This document shows, one piece after another, positions 14,032 to 24,865 of a stretch of DNA of 25,227 bases (its first letter is position 1; the number at the start of each line of letters is the position of its first letter). Source of the stretch: a virus; IMG/VR virus record IMGVR_UViG_3300044638_009088, positions 1 to 25,227 of that record; one strand, 5' to 3'. The translations under genes and the position numbers were made by a program. Under the pieces are notes generated by a model, which was not told the origin of the DNA, searched no databases, and saw nothing but the letters and a program-made list of their open reading frames with translations.

Positions 14032-15276
14032 ATGGAAGCACTAAAAGATAGTGGTGGTAAAAAGCCAACGACACCAACAGACGTCGTTGCGACTAATACC
14101 GGCGTAGGCACGGTAGCCTCAATATCTTTTACCCCGTCCGAATATATCGGCAAGGACACAATTACTTACACAGCCACATCAAGTCCTGGCAGTGTTAGCG
14201 CATCAGCATCCAGCTCACCAATAACGGTCACTGGATTGACTGCTGGAACAAGTTATACATTCACGCTGGTGGCTACAACAAACTATGGCGTGCCTTCAGA
14301 TACCGTTACGACTGATTCTGTGGCAATCGGGCAAAATCCCGGCACACCAACAATCGGAACTGCAACAATAGTTCAGAACGCAAACAGAGAAGTTGATGTC
14401 ACTTATACTGCTGGTGCTTCGGGTACAGGTTTAACAACATTTACTGCAACTTCCTCCCCAGGCGGGATAACGGCGACAGGCTCAAGCCCAATTCGCGTTA
14501 CTGGTCTTACTGCTGGAACCTCTTACACGTTTACTGTAACTGCATCAAACCTATTTGGTTCTTCAACTTCCGCTGCTTCCAACTCTGTGACAGCAGGTAA
14601 TGCACCAACCGCTGCAACCATCGGAACTGCGGCGATAGTACAAAACGTTGACAGGGCTATTGATGTTCCGTTTACTCCTGGTTCCGCAGGAACAGGTTCA
14701 CCAACCTATACGGCAATAGCAAGTCCAGGTGGTGCACAGTTCAGTGGGACAAGTCCAATCAGGGCAACTGGCCTGACGGCAGGGCAGGCTTATACATTTA
14801 TTGTTAGAACGTCCACTACCTATGGAACGGCCGACTCTTCTTCGTCAAACTCGGTTACAGCAGGAAATAGACCCGGAGCTCCGACTATTGGCACTGCTAC
14901 TGGCGGAAACGCTCAAGCAACTGTTACGTATACTGCTGGAGCAGCAGGAACTGGAACGACAACATTTACTGCAACGTCTTCCCCAGGTGGTCTTACTGGA
15001 ACTGGAACATCACCCATTACTATTACTGGCCTTACCAACGGTACTGCTTACACATTCACAGTTACTGCGTCTAATGCTTACGGTTCACAGGCTTCTGCGC
15101 CTTCAAACTCGGTCACTCCAGTTGCTCCACCGTATTTTCCACCGTACTTCCCGCCATTCTTTCCGCCGTTCTTTCCTCCATTTTTCCCACCTTTCTTCCC
15201 TCCGTTTTTCCCTCCGTTCTTCCCACCGTTTTTCCCGCCTTTCTTCCCACCTCCATTTGGTCCTGGATTTAAGTGA
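14032..15276 (+). CDS. Fibronectin-III-like repeat protein ending in [FY]FPP tandem repeats
   Basis: The protein has 414 residues and starts three bases after the previous stop. Four repeats of about 85-95 residues carry the signature SPITVTGLTAGTSYTFTL ... NxxGxS (fibronectin-III-like), each followed by a Pro-rich linker. At residue 368 the sequence switches to ten contiguous tetrapeptides, two YFPP then eight FFPP, ending PFGPGFK. This aromatic-proline tail is unusual for a soluble virion protein and would form a stiff polyproline-like rod or a sticky surface. The gene is directly followed by a prolyl-hydroxylase-like gene, making the tail a candidate substrate (inference). Fibronectin-type domains on phage surfaces are thought to bind carbohydrate. 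Confidence 0.8.
   Translation: MEALKDSGGKKPTTPTDVVATNTGVGTVASISFTPSEYIGKDTITYTATSSPGSVSASASSSPITVTGLTAGTSYTFTLVATTNYGVPSDTVTTDSVAIGQNPGTPTIGTATIVQNANREVDVTYTAGASGTGLTTFTATSSPGGITATGSSPIRVTGLTAGTSYTFTVTASNLFGSSTSAASNSVTAGNAPTAATIGTAAIVQNVDRAIDVPFTPGSAGTGSPTYTAIASPGGAQFSGTSPIRATGLTAGQAYTFIVRTSTTYGTADSSSSNSVTAGNRPGAPTIGTATGGNAQATVTYTAGAAGTGTTTFTATSSPGGLTGTGTSPITITGLTNGTAYTFTVTASNAYGSQASAPSNSVTPVAPPYFPPYFPPFFPPFFPPFFPPFFPPFFPPFFPPFFPPFFPPPFGPGFK
15133..15252 (+). repeat. Ten [FY]FPP tetrapeptide repeats at the protein C-terminus
   Basis: Ten 12-base coding units encode YFPP twice and FFPP eight times, without interruption. Codons vary between units (TTC/TTT and CCA/CCG/CCT in different combinations), so the units are kept alike in protein rather than in DNA. 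Confidence 0.95.
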
Positions 15277-15279
15277 GGT

Positions 15280-15299
15280 TTCCGGATGGTTTTCCGGGA
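15280..15299 (+). promoter_or_regulatory. Hairpin over the start codon of the first oxygenase
   Basis: Bases 15280-15286 pair with 15293-15299 (six Watson-Crick pairs and one G-T wobble) around the loop TGGTTT. The ATG at 15286-15288 spans the stem end and the loop. It could couple or limit entry into the modification cassette. No T-run follows, so it is not a typical terminator. Confidence 0.3.
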
Positions 15300-15909
15300 C
15301 GAATCAGTAGAGCTAAACAGCCTCCCATTTGCTGACCCATCAAACATAGTAATAAAAGAAAATTTCATAAGCAAAGACCACCTTGCCGAGATACTTGATT
15401 ACTGTCACTCAGTAGAATTTTGGGAATCAAGAAGTCAACTCGGTACAGACAGCATTCACATGCCAGAGTTTATTGAGAAGAATTCGCCATATATTTTTTC
15501 AATCATGCAGCAGTATGTAGATAAAGTACAGCATGAAGTTGAGTATAGGTTTGGCAGATTTCTTGAGAGAACAAAACCCGGAATAAGAAAATGGTATCCT
15601 GGAGAAAAACAGGACGTCCATGCAGATGGCGAAACAGCAGATGGTTGGCCTGGATATAACTACATAGTTGATTATGGTTCAATTATTTACTTAAACGATG
15701 AGTACGAAGGCGGAGAGCTGTTCTTTCCAAAATACAACATTCACATAAAACCGCAACCAGGTACGCTGGTGTTTTTTCCGTCAACGAACATGTATGCTCA
15801 CGGAGTCACAGAAGTAACAGATGGGGTTAGATATACTTCGCCACATTTTTGGATTCCAGTAAAACACAGGGTACTCATGGAAATGGCTTTAATGGATGAG
15901 CAAAAATAA
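15286..15909 (+). CDS. 2OG-Fe(II) oxygenase, prolyl 4-hydroxylase-like (copy 1)
   Basis: This 207-residue protein shows the double-stranded beta-helix signature of prolyl-4-hydroxylase-type enzymes, which use oxygen and 2-oxoglutarate to hydroxylate an unactivated carbon. The Fe(II) triad is His112, Asp114 (VHADGE) and His172 (YAHGV). Arg182 (GVRYTSPHFW) is placed to bind the 2-oxoglutarate C5 carboxylate. YLNDEYEGGELFFPKY, with its GGEL turn and following PKPG-like loop, is the family hallmark. It starts nine bases after the [FY]FPP protein and overlaps the next gene by 14 bases. The substrate is unknown: phage protein proline, another residue or a small molecule. The fold assignment is strong. 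Confidence 0.9.
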   Translation: MVFRDESVELNSLPFADPSNIVIKENFISKDHLAEILDYCHSVEFWESRSQLGTDSIHMPEFIEKNSPYIFSIMQQYVDKVQHEVEYRFGRFLERTKPGIRKWYPGEKQDVHADGETADGWPGYNYIVDYGSIIYLNDEYEGGELFFPKYNIHIKPQPGTLVFFPSTNMYAHGVTEVTDGVRYTSPHFWIPVKHRVLMEMALMDEQK

Positions 15910-16684
15910 ACACGTTTATTTTTTGCATATACCAAAAACATCTGGAATGAAAATGCAGTATGACCTACTTGCTGCATCACAAAGTGCAAACAGTAAAAAC
16001 TTTCCCAATGCGTACATCCAAGATGTGGCAAAAGCAGTGTATATACCCGGAGAGTTTGAGTTTGTATTTAATCCAGAAATAGCTGAATCACACAACATAA
16101 TTTGTGGACACTTTGCTCGAAATCCGATAAGTGTTATTGAAGAACTCGTAACCTTCTCCATGGTAAGAGAGCCTTTTGAACAGTATTTAAGTTTGGCAAA
16201 GTACGCGGCCATGCAGTCTGGGGTTGATTTTACTGAAGAATTTTTAGACTTATTCCTTAGTAACGACAATGAATTCAACACTCAATTTGAGGGGATGTCT
16301 GGATGTGAAAATCCACAATCATGCTTCTTGTTTTCAAAAATTGCGTGTATTAAACATGAACCATATTTTGATGAATATGGCAATTTAGTTGAAACTAGGT
16401 ATCAATCATTTTTTGTTGAAAAGCCGAAGTCTTATTCAGAGTTAAGCGAAAAGCTGGATGGAATAATAGTAGGCACCGTGGAAAACAGAGCTCGTTTTGT
16501 TGAAACAATAAATGATATTTTATTTGATTTATACGGAATAAAAATATCTAACAACGATTCGGTGGTTAATGGAACACCCAAACCAACATTCAAAATAAGC
16601 AAACAACATAAATCGGTGATATATTCAAAAATTGAAATTGACATTGAGTTGTATGAAAAAATAAAAGAATCAGAACATGAATGA
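15896..16684 (+). CDS. Sulfotransferase-like protein (copy 1)
   Basis: The protein has 262 residues. The N-terminal HIPKTSG (residues 11-17) is the 5'-phosphosulfate loop of PAPS-dependent sulfotransferases, and VREPFEQYLSL (residues 90-100, Arg91 and Ser99) is the 3'-phosphate-binding motif. ICGHFARNP (69-77) matches the conserved segment between them. These match the family that sulfates polysaccharides or proteins (heparan-sulfate and chondroitin type). The enzyme would transfer sulfate from PAPS to a hydroxyl group. The start overlaps the oxygenase upstream by 14 bases and the end overlaps the next gene by eight, so the three are translationally coupled. The C-terminal half is diverged and the acceptor cannot be predicted. 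Confidence 0.8.
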   Translation: MSKNKHVYFLHIPKTSGMKMQYDLLAASQSANSKNFPNAYIQDVAKAVYIPGEFEFVFNPEIAESHNIICGHFARNPISVIEELVTFSMVREPFEQYLSLAKYAAMQSGVDFTEEFLDLFLSNDNEFNTQFEGMSGCENPQSCFLFSKIACIKHEPYFDEYGNLVETRYQSFFVEKPKSYSELSEKLDGIIVGTVENRARFVETINDILFDLYGIKISNNDSVVNGTPKPTFKISKQHKSVIYSKIEIDIELYEKIKESEHE

Positions 16685-17423
16685 TAAAAAAATATATCAT
16701 TTACACATACCGAGGACCTCTGGTTACGGAATTGCCAATGCCTTAGAAAAAACATTTTCCGAACAGGGTTTCTATCTACACAAACCAACCCAGAGTGAAA
16801 TTTACTCAGAAGACACGTTCAAGGACAATCCGTACGTATCTGGCCATTTTGCTTCTAACCCAATTTTTAAAAATGAAGATAATTATGATGTGTTTTCACT
16901 AATCAGAGAGCCCGTTCAGCACTATTTAAGCATTGCTAAATATGTGGCCAAAAGTGGCAATGTGGCTTTTGATAATCACTTTCTTGAAGAATTCATGTGG
17001 GGAAGCGTTACGCCTTTCGGAGCCAACGAACTATTTTCAAGTTCTGGGAACATACAGTCAAAAATGCTGTTCTGCAGGCTGGCTACGTGTGACGACTCGG
17101 TAGTTGCATTGCGCGATACAGATGTAGCAAGCAAGGTAAATTTAGTTTTTATAGAATCAGACCTGCCCACACCAGAGCTTTTAGAAAAGGAAATTGAGAA
17201 TATGAACCTTTTCATTATGGAGGATAGAAAAACCGCAATTAATTGGCTGGCAGATAAAGTCAAATTCACCTATGGACTCAAACTTTCAGAAAACGCTCAT
17301 TCAAAAATGAATTCAATAATTAGCCAAGATTTTAAAATTTCGCATGTTGCGGAGCAGGAGATACTCAAAAGGTCATCACTGGACTTCCAGTTGTACGATT
17401 TGGTCCTATGCAGGCATCGGTAG
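16677..17423 (+). CDS. Sulfotransferase-like protein (copy 2)
   Basis: This 248-residue paralogue of the gene before it has HIPRTSG (residues 10-16), SGHFASNPI (55-63) and IREPVQHYLSIAKYVA (76-91), the same three blocks in the same order. The usual lysine of the phosphosulfate loop is replaced by Arg12, which keeps the charge but may alter catalysis. The two genes overlap by eight bases (ATGAATGA), consistent with tandem duplication followed by divergence; beyond the motifs, similarity is low. It may act on a different acceptor or pair with copy 1. Base composition becomes A/T-rich in both copies compared with the fibre genes. Confidence 0.78.
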   Translation: MNDKKIYHLHIPRTSGYGIANALEKTFSEQGFYLHKPTQSEIYSEDTFKDNPYVSGHFASNPIFKNEDNYDVFSLIREPVQHYLSIAKYVAKSGNVAFDNHFLEEFMWGSVTPFGANELFSSSGNIQSKMLFCRLATCDDSVVALRDTDVASKVNLVFIESDLPTPELLEKEIENMNLFIMEDRKTAINWLADKVKFTYGLKLSENAHSKMNSIISQDFKISHVAEQEILKRSSLDFQLYDLVLCRHR

Positions 17424-17434
17424 CCTGTTAGTGT

Positions 17435-17450
17435 TGTTGATATGTCAACA
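17435..17450 (+). promoter_or_regulatory. Inverted repeat with start codon in the loop
   Basis: TGTTGA (17435-17440) and TCAACA (17445-17450) are perfect complements around the tetraloop TATG, which holds the ATG at 17442. The 18-base upstream gap has no Shine-Dalgarno sequence. The core TTGATATGNCAA is shared with the site at 6680-6697. Confidence 0.4.
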
Positions 17451-18068
17451 GGTAGTGAATCGCCATGGAAAATAAAGCCGGGACATTTTGGGTCTGGTCC
17501 TGAAAATATACATATTTTTGAGAACTTCATAGAAAAAGACGACCTTGAAATCATTCAAGATTTCTGCCCGACAATAAATGAGTGGAACAACTCAAAAGAA
17601 AGCGTTTATGCTGAAGATGGGACGTGTCTGTACAACGCTGATTATTGGAACGACAGGCAGTGCAGTAGCGATATTCTCCAAAGACTTTCAGTGCCAGTTT
17701 TCAACATAATTGATAAATATATACAAAAGATGCAGACAGCTCTTGAGGAAATCTATGGTCTAGAACTTTCTCCGCGACCCCCAGTAATCATGAAGTGGAG
17801 ACCCGGAATCGAGCAAAGACCGCATGCCGATAAGCAGCTGAATAACGGTGAGCCAAACGCCTTTGTTGACTACGACTTGAACTCATTGTTTTATTACAAC
17901 GATGATTTTGAAGGCGGAGAACTCTATTACCCACAGCACGACATAAGTATTAAGCCAAAGCCGGGCCTAGCAATCGCTCATCCGGGTGACGTCAATTACC
18001 TGCACGGAGTTAAAATGGTAACAAAGGGGTACAGGTACACCACCCCTTCTTTTTATACGGTTAAATAA
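17442..18068 (+). CDS. 2OG-Fe(II) oxygenase, prolyl 4-hydroxylase-like (copy 2)
   Basis: The protein has 208 residues. The iron triad is His128, Asp130 (RPHADKQ) and His188 (YLHGV), with Arg198 (GYRYTTPSF) as the 2-oxoglutarate anchor. DDFEGGELYYPQHD is the family core. It resembles copy 1 more than the other two: both keep the order EDFI/ENFI helix, FGRF/YGLE, KW[YR]PG[EI], HADxx, GGEL[FY][FY]P and the RYTxP end. An 18-base gap after the sulfotransferases, with no Shine-Dalgarno sequence, places the ATG in a hairpin loop. Cytoplasmic and soluble. The substrate is unassigned; protein hydroxylation is the likeliest family role. Confidence 0.9.
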   Translation: MSTGSESPWKIKPGHFGSGPENIHIFENFIEKDDLEIIQDFCPTINEWNNSKESVYAEDGTCLYNADYWNDRQCSSDILQRLSVPVFNIIDKYIQKMQTALEEIYGLELSPRPPVIMKWRPGIEQRPHADKQLNNGEPNAFVDYDLNSLFYYNDDFEGGELYYPQHDISIKPKPGLAIAHPGDVNYLHGVKMVTKGYRYTTPSFYTVK

Positions 18069-18071
18069 AAG

Positions 18072-18599
18072 ATGATTATAAGCAAATCAAACTTGATAGA
18101 ACCAAAAGAATATGGCGTGATATTAGACGCAATTAAAGAAATTGGTTCGCCGTCAAACTATTCAAAAAATGACCCATCAACTGGATACTACGATAAATAT
18201 GCCTTGCTTGAACACGATGCGTTTTCGTATGGTGTTTTTGAGGACATATGCGAACGGGTTTTAAAAATTGCAGAAGAAGAGTTTGAGACAGCCCTAGCCG
18301 TTGACAATGCGGTGCTTGTTGAGGTCATTCCAGGAAATGTTCCCGAAGAGCATGCGGATAGTCAGAACCTTGACGGAACGCCAAAGTTGGGTTGCAATAA
18401 TTTTGTTGTTTCTGCAGTTGTCTATTTAAACGATGAATTCTCGGGCGGGGACTTAGTTTTCCCTAAAGCTGATTACCGATATAAACCGCGCGCTGGTGGC
18501 TGTGTTATTTTTCCAAGCAATTTACCATACAGCCATTATGTTGATAGTGTTTTAAGTGGCAAGCGGGTGTCATTGGCAATATGGTTTCTGCAGATATGA
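18072..18599 (+). CDS. 2OG-Fe(II) oxygenase, compact (copy 3)
   Basis: At 175 residues this is the shortest oxygenase of the cassette. Ligands His94, Asp96 (EEHADSQ) and His155 (YSHYV), with Arg165 (SGKRVSLAIWF), are all present, as is YLNDEFSGGDLVFPKADY. The N-terminal half lacks much of the cap region found in copies 1 and 2, which often shapes the substrate pocket, so its substrate may be different or larger. It starts three bases after the stop of copy 2. The next gene begins seven bases downstream, so the set reads as one transcript. Confidence 0.88.
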   Translation: MIISKSNLIEPKEYGVILDAIKEIGSPSNYSKNDPSTGYYDKYALLEHDAFSYGVFEDICERVLKIAEEEFETALAVDNAVLVEVIPGNVPEEHADSQNLDGTPKLGCNNFVVSAVVYLNDEFSGGDLVFPKADYRYKPRAGGCVIFPSNLPYSHYVDSVLSGKRVSLAIWFLQI

Positions 18600-18606
18600 T
18601 GAGCCG

Positions 18607-19338
18607 ATGAGAAACATTCAAGTTGAATTTGTCGGAGACCCAAAAGCAGGGTTTCTTGTCTACAGAAATGTGTTGAGTGAGGACTTGAGAATACCAGAGC
18701 GCCTAGAGGAAACAATAGGAAACAGCTCAACTGCACCATACTCATGGATGCAGGCCCTTGTTGGGGATGGTCAAGTCATGAAGGACTACAGGGATTGCGT
18801 TGATTGTAAAATGAGCCCTGCACATCTTGAGCACTGTCCAGAACAATTCAGCGAACTTGTAAATATCTATAACGACACCGTATCTGGGCTGACTGCTTGC
18901 CTTCAGGATTATGAAGCTAAATACAACATTCGCATGGATTTCATGGAAGCAATCAATTACGTGAGATATAACGAAGGCCAGCACTTCAATGTCCATGCTG
19001 ACCATGGCTTTTCATATGTATGCACGGTTTCGTCGGTAATGTACCTAAACGACGACTACGACGGTGGCGAACTTTGGTTTCCGTTCTTAGACATTACGTT
19101 CAAGCCAAAATATGGTGACATCGTACTATTTCCTTCAACATACATCTACTCCCATGCATCAAGACCTGTAACAAGAGGGACAAAGTATGCAGCCGTCACT
19201 ATGTTTGACTACAACGATAGATATCACAAGTTGTGGAAGGGATACGGGAAAAACATGGATGGAACAGATGCCGAGTATGGACCTGGAATAGTAAACCCAG
19301 CAGCAAACCAAGTTGATAGGTTTATCTTTAAAAAATGA
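18607..19338 (+). CDS. 2OG-Fe(II) oxygenase, prolyl 4-hydroxylase-like with Lys anchor (copy 4)
   Basis: This 243-residue protein has the iron triad His130, Asp132 (NVHADHG) and His183 (YSHASRPV). At the 2-oxoglutarate anchor position it carries Lys193 (RGTKYAAVT), as in animal and algal prolyl 4-hydroxylases, where copies 1-3 have Arg. DDYDGGELWFPFLDITFKP is the conserved core. Cys64 and Cys67 (DCVDCK), with Cys77, add a small cysteine group not seen in the others. The start at 18607 was chosen because an in-frame start at 18556 would overlap copy 3 by 44 bases. The end overlaps the next gene by four bases (ATGA). Confidence 0.9.
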   Translation: MRNIQVEFVGDPKAGFLVYRNVLSEDLRIPERLEETIGNSSTAPYSWMQALVGDGQVMKDYRDCVDCKMSPAHLEHCPEQFSELVNIYNDTVSGLTACLQDYEAKYNIRMDFMEAINYVRYNEGQHFNVHADHGFSYVCTVSSVMYLNDDYDGGELWFPFLDITFKPKYGDIVLFPSTYIYSHASRPVTRGTKYAAVTMFDYNDRYHKLWKGYGKNMDGTDAEYGPGIVNPAANQVDRFIFKK

Positions 19339-20036
19339 CTAAATTGTTTTTAAAGAAAACGCATCAGCACCCTCCAAAGATAACTCAGTCACGAATCAAG
19401 CGCGACTGGATGGATGAAACCTACAATAAGCATGCATATCAGTGCCTTCCGATGACGGTTGCAAATGTTTATGGGTGGGAGATTGTCATGGAGGAGGACC
19501 TTGTTGTCCAGTGGGATGGAGGCAACACTCCACCGTCAATTCTTTCTGGTGAGGTAACTTCTTCTGGCAGGGTTCAGGCAATCTCGTCAATTATTGGAAT
19601 GATTTCAATAAACATGGGATGGGTAATGAACACGGAGGAGGGTTACAACACCTGGTTTTCTGGTTCACCAAACTATTTCGTTGACGGCGCGGTGGCTTTG
19701 ACCGCAACGATTCCAAGCTATTGGTGGCCAGATGAGTCTCAAATGAACTGGAAGATTACAAAAATTGGAGAACCTGTCACATTCAAAGCCGGCACACCAT
19801 TTTGCTTTTTTAACATTTATGACAATTCTGTCCTCGAAAATGTAGAAATCATTGAATCAACCCTTTGGGATGACTCAAAGCTAATTGCTTCTCGGATGAA
19901 ATATGGTGAATTGAAAGCCAGAAACAATGTTGAAAAGCCATGGACGTGGACAAAGGGAATTAAAACAGGTCTTGACGCTGATGGCAATAAAATAGGCCCC
20001 ACATTCACTGGCCTGCCCAAATTAGCCAACCCGTAG
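19335..20036 (+). CDS. DUF6065-family protein
   Basis: The protein has 233 residues. RDWMDETYNKHAYQCLPM, ANVYGWEI, TEEGYNTWFSGSPNYFVDG, the Trp-rich MNWKITKIGEPVTFKAGTPF block and LIASRMKYG match what I know of the DUF6065 family, found in phages and in bacteria near oxygenase or glycan genes. Function is unknown. The ATGA overlap with the last oxygenase argues that it belongs to the same modification pathway, perhaps as an acceptor-binding or scaffold protein (inference). No HxD motif or nucleotide-binding loop is visible. It is the last gene of the cassette; a 45-base gap with a promoter-like motif follows. Confidence 0.75.
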   Translation: MTKLFLKKTHQHPPKITQSRIKRDWMDETYNKHAYQCLPMTVANVYGWEIVMEEDLVVQWDGGNTPPSILSGEVTSSGRVQAISSIIGMISINMGWVMNTEEGYNTWFSGSPNYFVDGAVALTATIPSYWWPDESQMNWKITKIGEPVTFKAGTPFCFFNIYDNSVLENVEIIESTLWDDSKLIASRMKYGELKARNNVEKPWTWTKGIKTGLDADGNKIGPTFTGLPKLANP

Positions 20037-21957: not shown

Positions 21958-21970
21958 CGATATATTATCG
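21958..21970. terminator. Weak inverted repeat between convergent genes
   Basis: CGATA (21958-21962) and TATCG (21966-21970) form a five-base-pair stem with a three-base loop between the ends of the methyltransferase-like gene and the minus-strand synthase. No T-run follows on either strand, so transcription stop is only a possibility. Confidence 0.2.
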
Positions 21971-23089
21971 ACAGGTATATCTTTCAAAGTCCATACCTTT
22001 TCTCCGCATTACATATTGCCAAAGATTGAACTTTCGAGACATAAAACCACCAATGCAGGCCAATAGATAAAATTCCCACATTTTTCTAAACTTTTCGTCG
22101 TAGCTTGGAATCTCATCCCAACTTGATGTGACGTTTTTATACCATTCGGCCAAAGTCTTTGCATAGTCCATGCCAAAGTTGTGGACATCCTCTATCACCC
22201 AATCTGGTTCTGCTGCCGCTGCGAACTGCGATACTGATGGCAAAATTCCGCCTGGGAATATGTATCTATCGTAGAAAGGGTCTGCATCATGACGTGCTCT
22301 CGTAGAACCAATAAGGTGATGAAGCATTATTCCTTTGTCTGTTAACTGTTCGTCACATTTATCAAAAAACAGTTTTAAATTCTTTGGTCCAACATGCTCC
22401 ATCATTGCAATTGAAACAATCCGGTCAAATTTCCCAAATTGTCCATTTAGTTCTTGATATGTGAGTTTATGAATTTCTATTCCTAGCGGTTCACAGCGCT
22501 TGATTGCTGTTGATATTTGTTTATCAACCGGGGTAATTCCAACGCCAGTAACGCCATAGGTTTTTGCTGCGTATTCAAGAAATCCGCCCCACCCACAACC
22601 AATATCAAGGACCCTCATGCCTGGTTTGAGTTTTAGTTTTTTACAAATCAAATCCATCTTGGCAATTTGTGCATCATCAAGATTTTTGGCTTTTTGCCAG
22701 TATCCACACGAATACATCATGTAGTCATCAAGCATTAATTCAAATAGGTCATTGCCTATGCCGTAATGAAATTCTGCGTTTTTTGGGGACCGGCTTCTAT
22801 TCTGCCTATTGGCAATACGTGACCATGCAGCCGCAATCGCAATACTTGGGCTCATGGGGATTTGTTTTGCAAGGTCTATATTTGTGAATCGGGTGAGCAT
22901 TTCATCAACTCGCTCGCATGACCACCATCCATCTACATATCCTTCGGCTAATCCGAGAAGTCTTTGGTCAAGCAGCCTATCCCAGAGTTTGTCGTTATGA
23001 ACATGGATTGAATACGGTTCCGGTCCATTGATTGGTATCCCAGCTTGCTCAAACAACTCTGTAAAGACTTTATGCGATTTTCTTGACAT
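21965..23089 (-). CDS. cfa: Cyclopropane-fatty-acyl-phospholipid synthase
   Basis: This 374-residue protein aligns along its whole length, from memory, with E. coli Cfa (382 residues). It methylates cis double bonds of membrane phospholipid acyl chains using SAM, producing cyclopropane rings. The N-terminal domain contains GYVDGWWSCERVDEM. The SAM loop is VLDIGCGWGGF (160-170). Residues expected for catalysis are Cys128 (YSCGYW), Glu231 (MEHVGPK), His258 and Ile260 (LHHLIGS), with Tyr309 in HNFGMDY and ending near RYTCR. It is soluble with peripheral membrane action. It is the only minus-strand gene, with its own TATAAT-like -10. Such an intact enzyme in a phage block is unusual, suggesting acquisition from a host. 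Confidence 0.93.
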   Translation of the reverse strand: MSRKSHKVFTELFEQAGIPINGPEPYSIHVHNDKLWDRLLDQRLLGLAEGYVDGWWSCERVDEMLTRFTNIDLAKQIPMSPSIAIAAAWSRIANRQNRSRSPKNAEFHYGIGNDLFELMLDDYMMYSCGYWQKAKNLDDAQIAKMDLICKKLKLKPGMRVLDIGCGWGGFLEYAAKTYGVTGVGITPVDKQISTAIKRCEPLGIEIHKLTYQELNGQFGKFDRIVSIAMMEHVGPKNLKLFFDKCDEQLTDKGIMLHHLIGSTRARHDADPFYDRYIFPGGILPSVSQFAAAAEPDWVIEDVHNFGMDYAKTLAEWYKNVTSSWDEIPSYDEKFRKMWEFYLLACIGGFMSRKFNLWQYVMRRKGMDFERYTCR

Positions 23090-23297: not shown

Positions 23298-24005
23298 ATG
23301 GATGCCCGTGCTGAACCGAGATTCTGGGAAGACATAATTAGCCATGTTCCATGCATAGAGGCAGCAACAAACAATTGGGAAATAATACTTGGCGAACTTG
23401 AAAATCAAATTGAATCCACGGAATCAAAGTGGCTGTGGAATGTACCACGAGTCAACATAGGCGAAGGTTTTAAATCCGACTCAACAGCAGATAAAACCAA
23501 GCTTTATACAGGCTCATCTTGGAAGATAATGGGCACTGGCGTTGAAGTGGATGTAGGTGGATTTACTGGACCTGGGGCAGATGTTTCAAGAAGGCTCGTT
23601 GAGATGAAAGCAAAAATGCCATATCACGATGCTTTGACCACCCTTCAAAAAACACTTCCAAAGACCGTATCAATTATCAAAGAGTATTCAGACCGTGGAG
23701 AGATGCTAAACACATCCCTTAGTGTTCTTGCTCCAGGTACGGTCATAAACCTGCATCAAGGCGACGCTTCCTATATGCGCATCCACGTCGGGTTAAAATG
23801 CGACCCAAACTGTCGTATTTCAGTTGGGAATGAAGATGTTGGATATGAATCACGAGTCTGGGCCCCTGGCAAGGCAATAGCTTTTAAAGATGGCGGGAAC
23901 TTTTATCACGGCGTAAACCATGAAGGTGATACTGAAAGATGGATTCTGTTATTTGATATTCCACTGTTGTACCTAAGAGGCTTAGTGGAACACGAATCAC
24001 TATGA
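23298..24005 (+). CDS. Aspartyl/asparaginyl beta-hydroxylase-like oxygenase
   Basis: This 235-residue protein has the C-terminal cupin-like fold of the Asp_Arg_Hydrox family, which hydroxylates Asp/Asn side chains of proteins or modifies lipids using Fe(II) and 2-oxoglutarate. Visible are LAPGTVINLHQGDASYMRIH (His153, with Arg161 and His163 in RIH), WAPGKAIAFKDGGNFYHGVNH (His204) and ERWILLFDI (Arg214). Two histidines, without the Asp of the HxD triad, are normal for this family, and LHQGD provides an extra Asp. The N-terminal half has no known features. It overlaps the next gene by four bases (ATGA), so it is coupled to the desaturase. Lipid-A-type 2-hydroxylases (LpxO) also belong here, so lipid hydroxylation is an alternative to protein hydroxylation. 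Confidence 0.85.
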   Translation: MDARAEPRFWEDIISHVPCIEAATNNWEIILGELENQIESTESKWLWNVPRVNIGEGFKSDSTADKTKLYTGSSWKIMGTGVEVDVGGFTGPGADVSRRLVEMKAKMPYHDALTTLQKTLPKTVSIIKEYSDRGEMLNTSLSVLAPGTVINLHQGDASYMRIHVGLKCDPNCRISVGNEDVGYESRVWAPGKAIAFKDGGNFYHGVNHEGDTERWILLFDIPLLYLRGLVEHESL

Positions 24006-24865
24006 TTACCGAACGCGAACTTGATATAAAAGCTAGTGAAATATCAGCAAAAACTTCTCCTGCATCAATCCTTATACTTACTGCTTCTGTTTCAGTCTAT
24101 TTGTTAAATATTGCTGCATATCATTACAAAACGTACGGATATCTAAGCGCCATAACCGTTGGTGCTGTCTGTTCGTACTTCATGTTTGCCATGATGCATG
24201 ACTCACTGCATGGGGCCTTGCTGCCCAAGAATAAGAAGCTCAATAATTTTATTGGAGTAATACTGGGTATCACCCAGAATACGCATTTTGAGTCATTCAA
24301 AAAACGACACAATCAACATCACCTGTATGCCAATTCCAATCGTGACCCAGATTTGATTTTTGCGCAGCAAGGAAAATATTCTCATATTTTTATTGTTCCA
24401 TTTTTTATCGCCTGTCTAAAACTCATACTTGCATTACCAAAATTTATAAAGACGAAAATTTTCAAACTAATAAAAGGTAAACCTGGAGCTTTTCTATACC
24501 TTGGGAATAAGGATAAAGACCAGGTGAATCTGTATCGATTCACATTCATATTCAGTATAACTAGCATGCTTTTGTTTGGTATTGATTCAATTATCCCAAT
24601 GCTGTATTCGTGTTCTTTTTTAAGCATATTTATTTACAACTTCATGGCAAACTGGCTGCCACATGAAACCTTGTTTGACAGAGAAGAAGAGTCTGTAAAC
24701 AAGTATAAAACTGCAAAAAGCTATTCATTTCCATTGAGTGGTTTGCTTATGTGGGGAGTGGATAAACATATAATTCACCACCTTTATCCACAAATACAGA
24801 CAGCCAATCTAAGAAAATTCTACTTATATGCAAAGCCATTAATTGACAAAGAATCGCTTCGTTAA
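24002..24865 (+). CDS. Membrane fatty-acid desaturase-family protein
   Basis: The protein has 287 residues and four to five hydrophobic spans (near 20-40, 47-65, 128-148, 178-215). It has the three histidine boxes of the diiron membrane desaturase/hydroxylase family: HDSLH (66-70), HNQHH (103-107) and HIIHH (256-260, in KHIIHHLYPQI), plus His221 in LPHETLF. It would use O2 and an electron donor to desaturate or hydroxylate lipids in the membrane. The HDSLHG ... HNQHHLYANSNRDPD arrangement is also close to carotenoid hydroxylase/ketolase enzymes, so the substrate could be an acyl chain or a carotenoid. TAATG overlap with the following gene. No dedicated ferredoxin is visible in the window. Confidence 0.87.
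   Translation: MITERELDIKASEISAKTSPASILILTASVSVYLLNIAAYHYKTYGYLSAITVGAVCSYFMFAMMHDSLHGALLPKNKKLNNFIGVILGITQNTHFESFKKRHNQHHLYANSNRDPDLIFAQQGKYSHIFIVPFFIACLKLILALPKFIKTKIFKLIKGKPGAFLYLGNKDKDQVNLYRFTFIFSITSMLLFGIDSIIPMLYSCSFLSIFIYNFMANWLPHETLFDREEESVNKYKTAKSYSFPLSGLLMWGVDKHIIHHLYPQIQTANLRKFYLYAKPLIDKESLR

Follow-up and report, generated by a model that had tools for sequence, protein, structure and literature searches.

Sulfotransferase-family and 2OG-Fe(II) oxygenase genes beside a fibre gene with a PPYF/PPFF tail in uncultured phages

Closest described systems and composition of the locus

The closest solved relatives of the genes considered here are the heparan sulfate (HS) 2-O- and 6-O-sulfotransferases, HS2ST and HS6ST. 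In HS2ST, His142 acts as putative catalytic base, its replacement by alanine leaving less than 1% of the activity (PMC6094399; see also PMC6081452). The tyrosylprotein sulfotransferases (TPSTs) form a second group, encountered in animals, plants and bacteria (RaxST). An arginine of their 5' loop is catalytic in human TPST1/2 (PMC5562738; TPST Arg78) and the arginine at this position is likewise the catalytic residue in mycobacterial Stf0 (PMC11625862); the latter source does not treat the Thr/Ser found at +4 as a defining residue. Plant TPST shares similarity with HS6ST, and plant sulfopeptides of the PSY type (PSY1) contain sulfotyrosine and hydroxyproline in one peptide (PMC9372746). PSY1 shows that both chemistries can co-occur, which for a phage tail serves as an analogy only.

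Sulfotransferases, called unusual for a phage fibre region in the first-pass annotation, were already annotated in other phages, with a function stated to be unclear (PMC10580990), and are thus not without precedent there. The "sulfotransferase family" genes of P-SSM7, ACG-2014f and OM43 phages are phage-borne as well and were encountered among BFVD fold matches; those of OM43 phages, however, belong to Sulfotransfer_3, and no tail/oxygenase cassette is reported for them in PMC10580990. Viral 2OG-Fe(II) oxygenases are represented by the prolyl 4-hydroxylases of PBCV-1 and of cyanophages and marine phages, thought to target proline-rich or collagen-like proteins. Marine phages commonly carry prolyl-hydroxylase-like oxygenases, whose viral use was called cryptic (PMC9301287; see also PMC12774648). 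In contrast to these, the oxygenases presented here are linked to one particular (PPYF/PPFF)n tail and to sulfotransferases. No description of a tail-oxygenase-sulfotransferase cassette was found in the literature searched, most subscription journals lying outside it.

The window, i.e. the whole stretch of DNA analysed, is an IMG/VR virus fragment of 25,227 bp. Its relevant features are the following.

14032..15276, plus strand: FnIII-repeat fibre/adhesin-like protein, the proposed acceptor (PF00041, E 1e-14)
15286..15909, plus strand: 2OG-Fe(II) oxygenase 1 (PF13640, E 5.4e-10; HAD...H...R intact)
15896..16684, plus strand: sulfotransferase-family gene A, Lys-type, 262 aa (HIPKTSGMKM; VREPFEQYLS; GH72)
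16677..17423, plus strand: sulfotransferase-family gene B, Arg-type, 248 aa (HIPRTSGYGI; IREPVQHYLS; GH57)
17442..18068, plus strand: 2OG-Fe(II) oxygenase 2 (phrog_61, E 2.7e-17; PF13640 at 7e-5, under the cut-off; HAD...H...R)
18072..18599, plus strand: 2OG-Fe(II) oxygenase 3 (PF13640, E 3.5e-11)
18607..19338, plus strand: 2OG-Fe(II) oxygenase 4 (PF13640, E 5.1e-13; longer alternative start at 18556)
19335..20036, plus strand: DUF6065 protein, at a conserved cassette position (PF19541, E 3.8e-44)
21965-23089, minus strand: cyclopropane-fatty-acid synthase, near the cassette (PF02353)
23298-24005: Asp/Asn beta-hydroxylase, near the cassette (PF05118)
24002-24865: fatty-acid desaturase, near the cassette (PF00487)

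The first-pass annotation had described two overlapping sulfotransferase-like genes inserted between hydroxylase genes. The reading frames of A and B were recovered at exactly its coordinates, with an overlap of 8 bp, and are preceded by one and followed by three 2OG-Fe(II) oxygenase genes in the window. Oxygenase 1 directly follows the tail gene and overlaps A by 14 bp. The HxD...H...R/K pattern was intact in all four oxygenases of the window and present in 72 of 75 distinct oxygenase proteins, the three remaining ones being truncated or differently spaced. Elsewhere in the window, positions 136-2541 encode an 801-aa protein composed of LHTAPRTASGSG-like repeats, without Pfam match.

Genes A and B within the sulfotransferase superfamily

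Genes A and B are paralogs (29% identity, E 2e-21) and their membership of the PAPS-dependent sulfotransferase superfamily was confirmed here. The AlphaFold model of A (pLDDT 69, pTM 0.69) matched best with HS2ST (4ndz_A, Z 13.7, 219 residues aligned, 3.9 Å) and also with HS6ST (5t03_B, Z 11.7), nearly all of its top structural matches being sulfotransferases. Structure prediction, proposed in the first-pass annotation, thus yielded the sulfotransferase fold for A but no usable model for B (pLDDT 37), whose fold assignment rests on homology to A. A profile of 21 sequences (A4) matched HS 6-O-sulfotransferase-3 among PDB sequences with an E value of 1.1e-10, which together with the model of A bears out the sulfotransferase-like identity initially assigned to both genes; profiles restricted to A or to B only gave chance matches against PDB sequences. 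A and B were both below the gathering cut-off of PF03567 (Sulfotransfer_2) and had no Pfam match, NCBIfam and PADLOC searches with both remained without match, and tblastn against 50,697 GenBank phages retrieved no close sequence relative. PHROG returned weak matches to "Galactose-3-O-sulfotransferase" (1.5e-4 and 9.5e-4). L237, a distant bacterial relative, was above the PF03567 cut-off, and L234 and L236 were just under it. The superfamily is therefore settled by the relatives (fold, broad profile and L237), while single-sequence searches were almost blank.

The 3'-phosphate motif R.......S was invariant in 21 diverse aligned sequences (Arg91 and Ser99 in A, corresponding to Arg77 and Ser85 in B), and so was a Gly-His pair (Gly71-His72 in A). 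The profile placed this pair on the segment FYHGHV of HS2ST by a weak match (E 0.4), and the second histidine of that segment corresponds to His142 when residues are numbered from the N108 sequon. The 5' loop displayed Lys14 in A and Arg13 in B. The Thr/Ser expected at +4 after this residue was missing (Met in A, Tyr in B); this position was variable in both window subfamilies, while most single-copy relatives kept Thr. L001, a near relative, displayed KPSG in place of KTSG. Of the two PAPS-binding motifs initially attributed to both genes, the 3' motif was thus found invariant but the 5' loop incomplete, without its +4 Thr/Ser. The arginine of the second copy, remarked upon earlier as replacing the usual lysine, was indeed encountered and is shared by the whole of subfamily B and by most single-copy relatives. 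It is characteristic of the family, has active counterparts in TPST (Arg78) and Stf0, and is no defect.

The family shares with HS2ST and HS6ST the fold, the 5' Lys position, the 3' Arg/Ser and the profile similarity to HS6ST, with a candidate base histidine weakly aligned with His142. A and B differ from these enzymes by their length of about 250 aa, their scores under the PF03567 threshold, the loss of the +4 Thr/Ser, the arginine of B, and their location in a phage fibre operon without glycosaminoglycan context. With TPSTs, B has the 5'-loop arginine in common; in contrast to TPST substrates, Asp and Glu are absent around the tyrosines of PPYFPPYF(PPFF)n, so that the acidic surroundings typical of animal TPST acceptors are missing. 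In sequence, A and B are closer to HS6ST.

A preceded B in all contigs of the window's clade carrying both copies, and the Lys/Arg difference was fixed per subfamily in this clade; with the fold of A and the profile match to HS6ST, this shows that the gene pair is not a chance observation. Two oxygenase genes separated A from B in L026 and L034. B was encountered without A in L022-L025, L027-L033 and L035-L037, and A without B in L001 and L002; neither therefore requires the other. The B subfamily was conserved across its homologs. The tree opposed an A clade to a larger clade composed of B and the single-copy Arg types, with moderate support for the deep forks.

The fibre tail and the surrounding cassette

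The protein encoded at 14032-15276 ends with ...APPYFPPYF(PPFF)8PPPFGPGFK, and a PPYFPPYF(PPFF)n tail was common to the F3-family homologs (L001-L042). Across 40 aligned codons, 19 distinct tail DNAs displayed 3827 pairwise synonymous and no nonsynonymous differences, a count that measures codon drift under a constant protein sequence since the motif itself served to anchor the alignment. Synonymous variation was found at each of the 40 codons, which indicates strong selection on the amino-acid sequence of the tail. A tail search in named phages gave no match, a result made uninformative by low-complexity masking.

A DNA scan for PPFFPPFFPPFF uncovered at least 120 viral stretches with arrays. 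Among the matches listed, 45 of 53 distinct tails having at least four downstream genes were followed by an oxygenase at most four genes off, while a sulfotransferase was present in a minority of tail clusters only, many PPFF clusters consisting of oxygenases without sulfotransferase. The oxygenases are thus the common core, to which sulfotransferases are an optional addition. At least two tyrosines were displayed by 15 of 16 tails with sulfotransferase and by 13 of 37 without, among the matches listed (Fisher p 7e-5, kinship ignored). In the same set, tails with sulfotransferase were strictly PPXF; PFF triplet units occurred in none of these 16 and in 21 of the 37 others. The one exception among the 16, the tail of L227, displayed PPHF, with His for Tyr and no tyrosine at all, although a sulfotransferase was present, so that Tyr cannot be the universal acceptor.

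Relatives of A and B were gathered by a profile search blind to genomic context. Among the best 80 of 219 relatives in viral contigs, all 44 distinct viral ones were at most two genes away from a 2OG oxygenase, and 39 of 44 had a PPXF-tail gene at most five genes upstream (two lacked one, and three could be counted neither way because of a contig edge). Three cellular relatives displayed neither oxygenase neighbour nor tail gene. The usual order was tail protein, oxygenase, sulfotransferase(s), two or three oxygenases and DUF6065. Synteny among kin is partly inheritance; the association with tail gene and oxygenases persisted in relatives at only 25-30% identity. Oxygenases, sulfotransferases and PPXF array were also found together in six contigs of 83-173 kb. 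In one of these, G001 (172.5 kb, the contig of L013), all 12 PF13640 matches were at 34.6-53.8 kb, both sulfotransferases at 52.1-53.6 kb and the only matching PPXF array at 54.2-54.3 kb, i.e. the whole set within 20 kb.

A sulfotransferase and a 2OG-oxygenase domain were joined in a single frame of 491 aa in L191-L194 (e.g. L191:2823-4298; PF13640, E 2.9e-9), a fusion represented by two distinct versions. Its oxygenase domain displayed HTN in place of HxD, for which reason its role may be one of binding and not of catalysis. No glycosyltransferase was conserved among the cluster genes scanned, which weakens the suggestion of the first-pass annotation that a glycan could be added between hydroxylation and sulfation.

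Additional genes were observed in some clusters. A glutathione-peroxidase-like gene (311-336 aa, PF00255, E 2.2e-6) followed the tail gene and preceded the first oxygenase in L204, L205 and L215-L226. A conserved protein of about 258 aa was encoded between the oxygenases of sulfotransferase-less clusters (L046, L063, L077 and about 22 more PPFF loci); it was considered as a divergent sulfotransferase and rejected, as it displayed neither sulfotransferase motif nor Pfam match.

Concerning phage affinity, a fibre-region structural protein of the window clade resembled T4-like cyanophages, and the terminase of G001 was nearest to those of Gordonia and psiM2-like phages (about 42%). As this terminase is not T4-like, the resemblance of the structural protein is no sufficient indication of the host. 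No photosystem gene was found in 14 contigs. Judging from its sequence, G001 is a mosaic, and no cultured relative was identified for it.

Proposed modification of the tail and competing explanations

The reading favoured here, with a probability of roughly one half (0.52), is that A and B are PAPS-dependent enzymes resembling HS 2-O/6-O-sulfotransferases, which modify the tail of the upstream fibre in concert with the adjacent 2OG-Fe(II) oxygenases. In the following scheme we infer the binding of PAPS, the enzymatic activity, the acceptor, the order of steps and the benefit to the phage. PAPS would be supplied by the host and bound through Lys14 (A) or Arg13 (B) of the 5' loop and through the 3' residues Arg91/Ser99 (A) or Arg77/Ser85 (B), with His72 of A or His57 of B as putative base. 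The sulfuryl group would be transferred to a tail hydroxyl, provided either by the PPYF tyrosines or by oxygenase-made hydroxyls on proline or an aromatic residue; candidate acceptor peptides of the tail type are PPYFPPYFPPFF. The tip of the adhesin would thereby become hydroxylated and anionic. The linkage of A and B to oxygenases and to a fibre protein supports part of the first-pass interpretation; its sequence of hydroxylation before sulfation may not apply, the tail tyrosines being alternative acceptors. An APS kinase was found in one of 14 contigs. The L193 contig encoded, about 14 kb from the fusion gene, a protein with APS-kinase-like and nucleotidyltransferase parts. PAPS_reduct matches, considered as evidence for PAPS supply, were set aside as too unspecific.

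The closest solved relatives, HS2ST and HS6ST, act on polysaccharides, and the window also carries genes for a cyclopropane synthase and a fatty-acid desaturase, both lipid-modifying. Both observations would suit sulfation of a host cell-surface glycan or lipid, for instance blocking adsorption of competing phages, with the vicinity of the fibre gene merely reflecting shared late genes. This explanation is unlikely in view of the linkage to tail gene and oxygenases kept at 25-30% identity, the existence of a sulfotransferase-oxygenase fusion and the absence of a recurring glycosyltransferase from the cluster. That last observation also argues against another scenario, in which the tail is hydroxylated and then glycosylated by an enzyme of the host or by one encoded at an unlinked phage locus, A and B sulfating the resulting glycan; hydroxyproline glycosylation is established in plants and the HS2ST/HS6ST-like fold of A would fit such a substrate, but this route is judged quite improbable, more so than a host-surface acceptor.

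One or both copies could also be non-catalytic, their fold being kept for binding PAP, a nucleotide or a substrate, in the role of a chaperone of the hydroxylases or of the tail. The variable residues replacing the +4 Thr/Ser in both window subfamilies, the arginine of B and the KPSG of L001 point in this direction. Against it stand the conservation of Lys/Arg, of Arg/Ser and of the GH histidine, the functional arginine of TPST and Stf0, and the Thr retained at +4 by single-copy relatives, which together make a loss of catalysis as improbable as sulfation of a tail glycan.

Returning to sulfation of the tail itself, a broader proposal is that a cassette widespread in uncultured phages, composed of 2OG oxygenases, DUF6065 and optional sulfotransferases, hydroxylates and O-sulfates the PPYF/PPFF tail of its own fibre; this is advanced tentatively, the odds being somewhat against it in so general a form. 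The cassette offers a concrete candidate substrate for its sulfotransferases and oxygenases, namely a fibre tail of constant protein sequence and drifting codons. If the proposal is correct, it would represent a phage-encoded pathway of protein sulfation with a virion adhesin as substrate, some "auxiliary metabolic" genes would be virion-modification genes, and phages would display sulfated, hydroxylated peptide adhesins.
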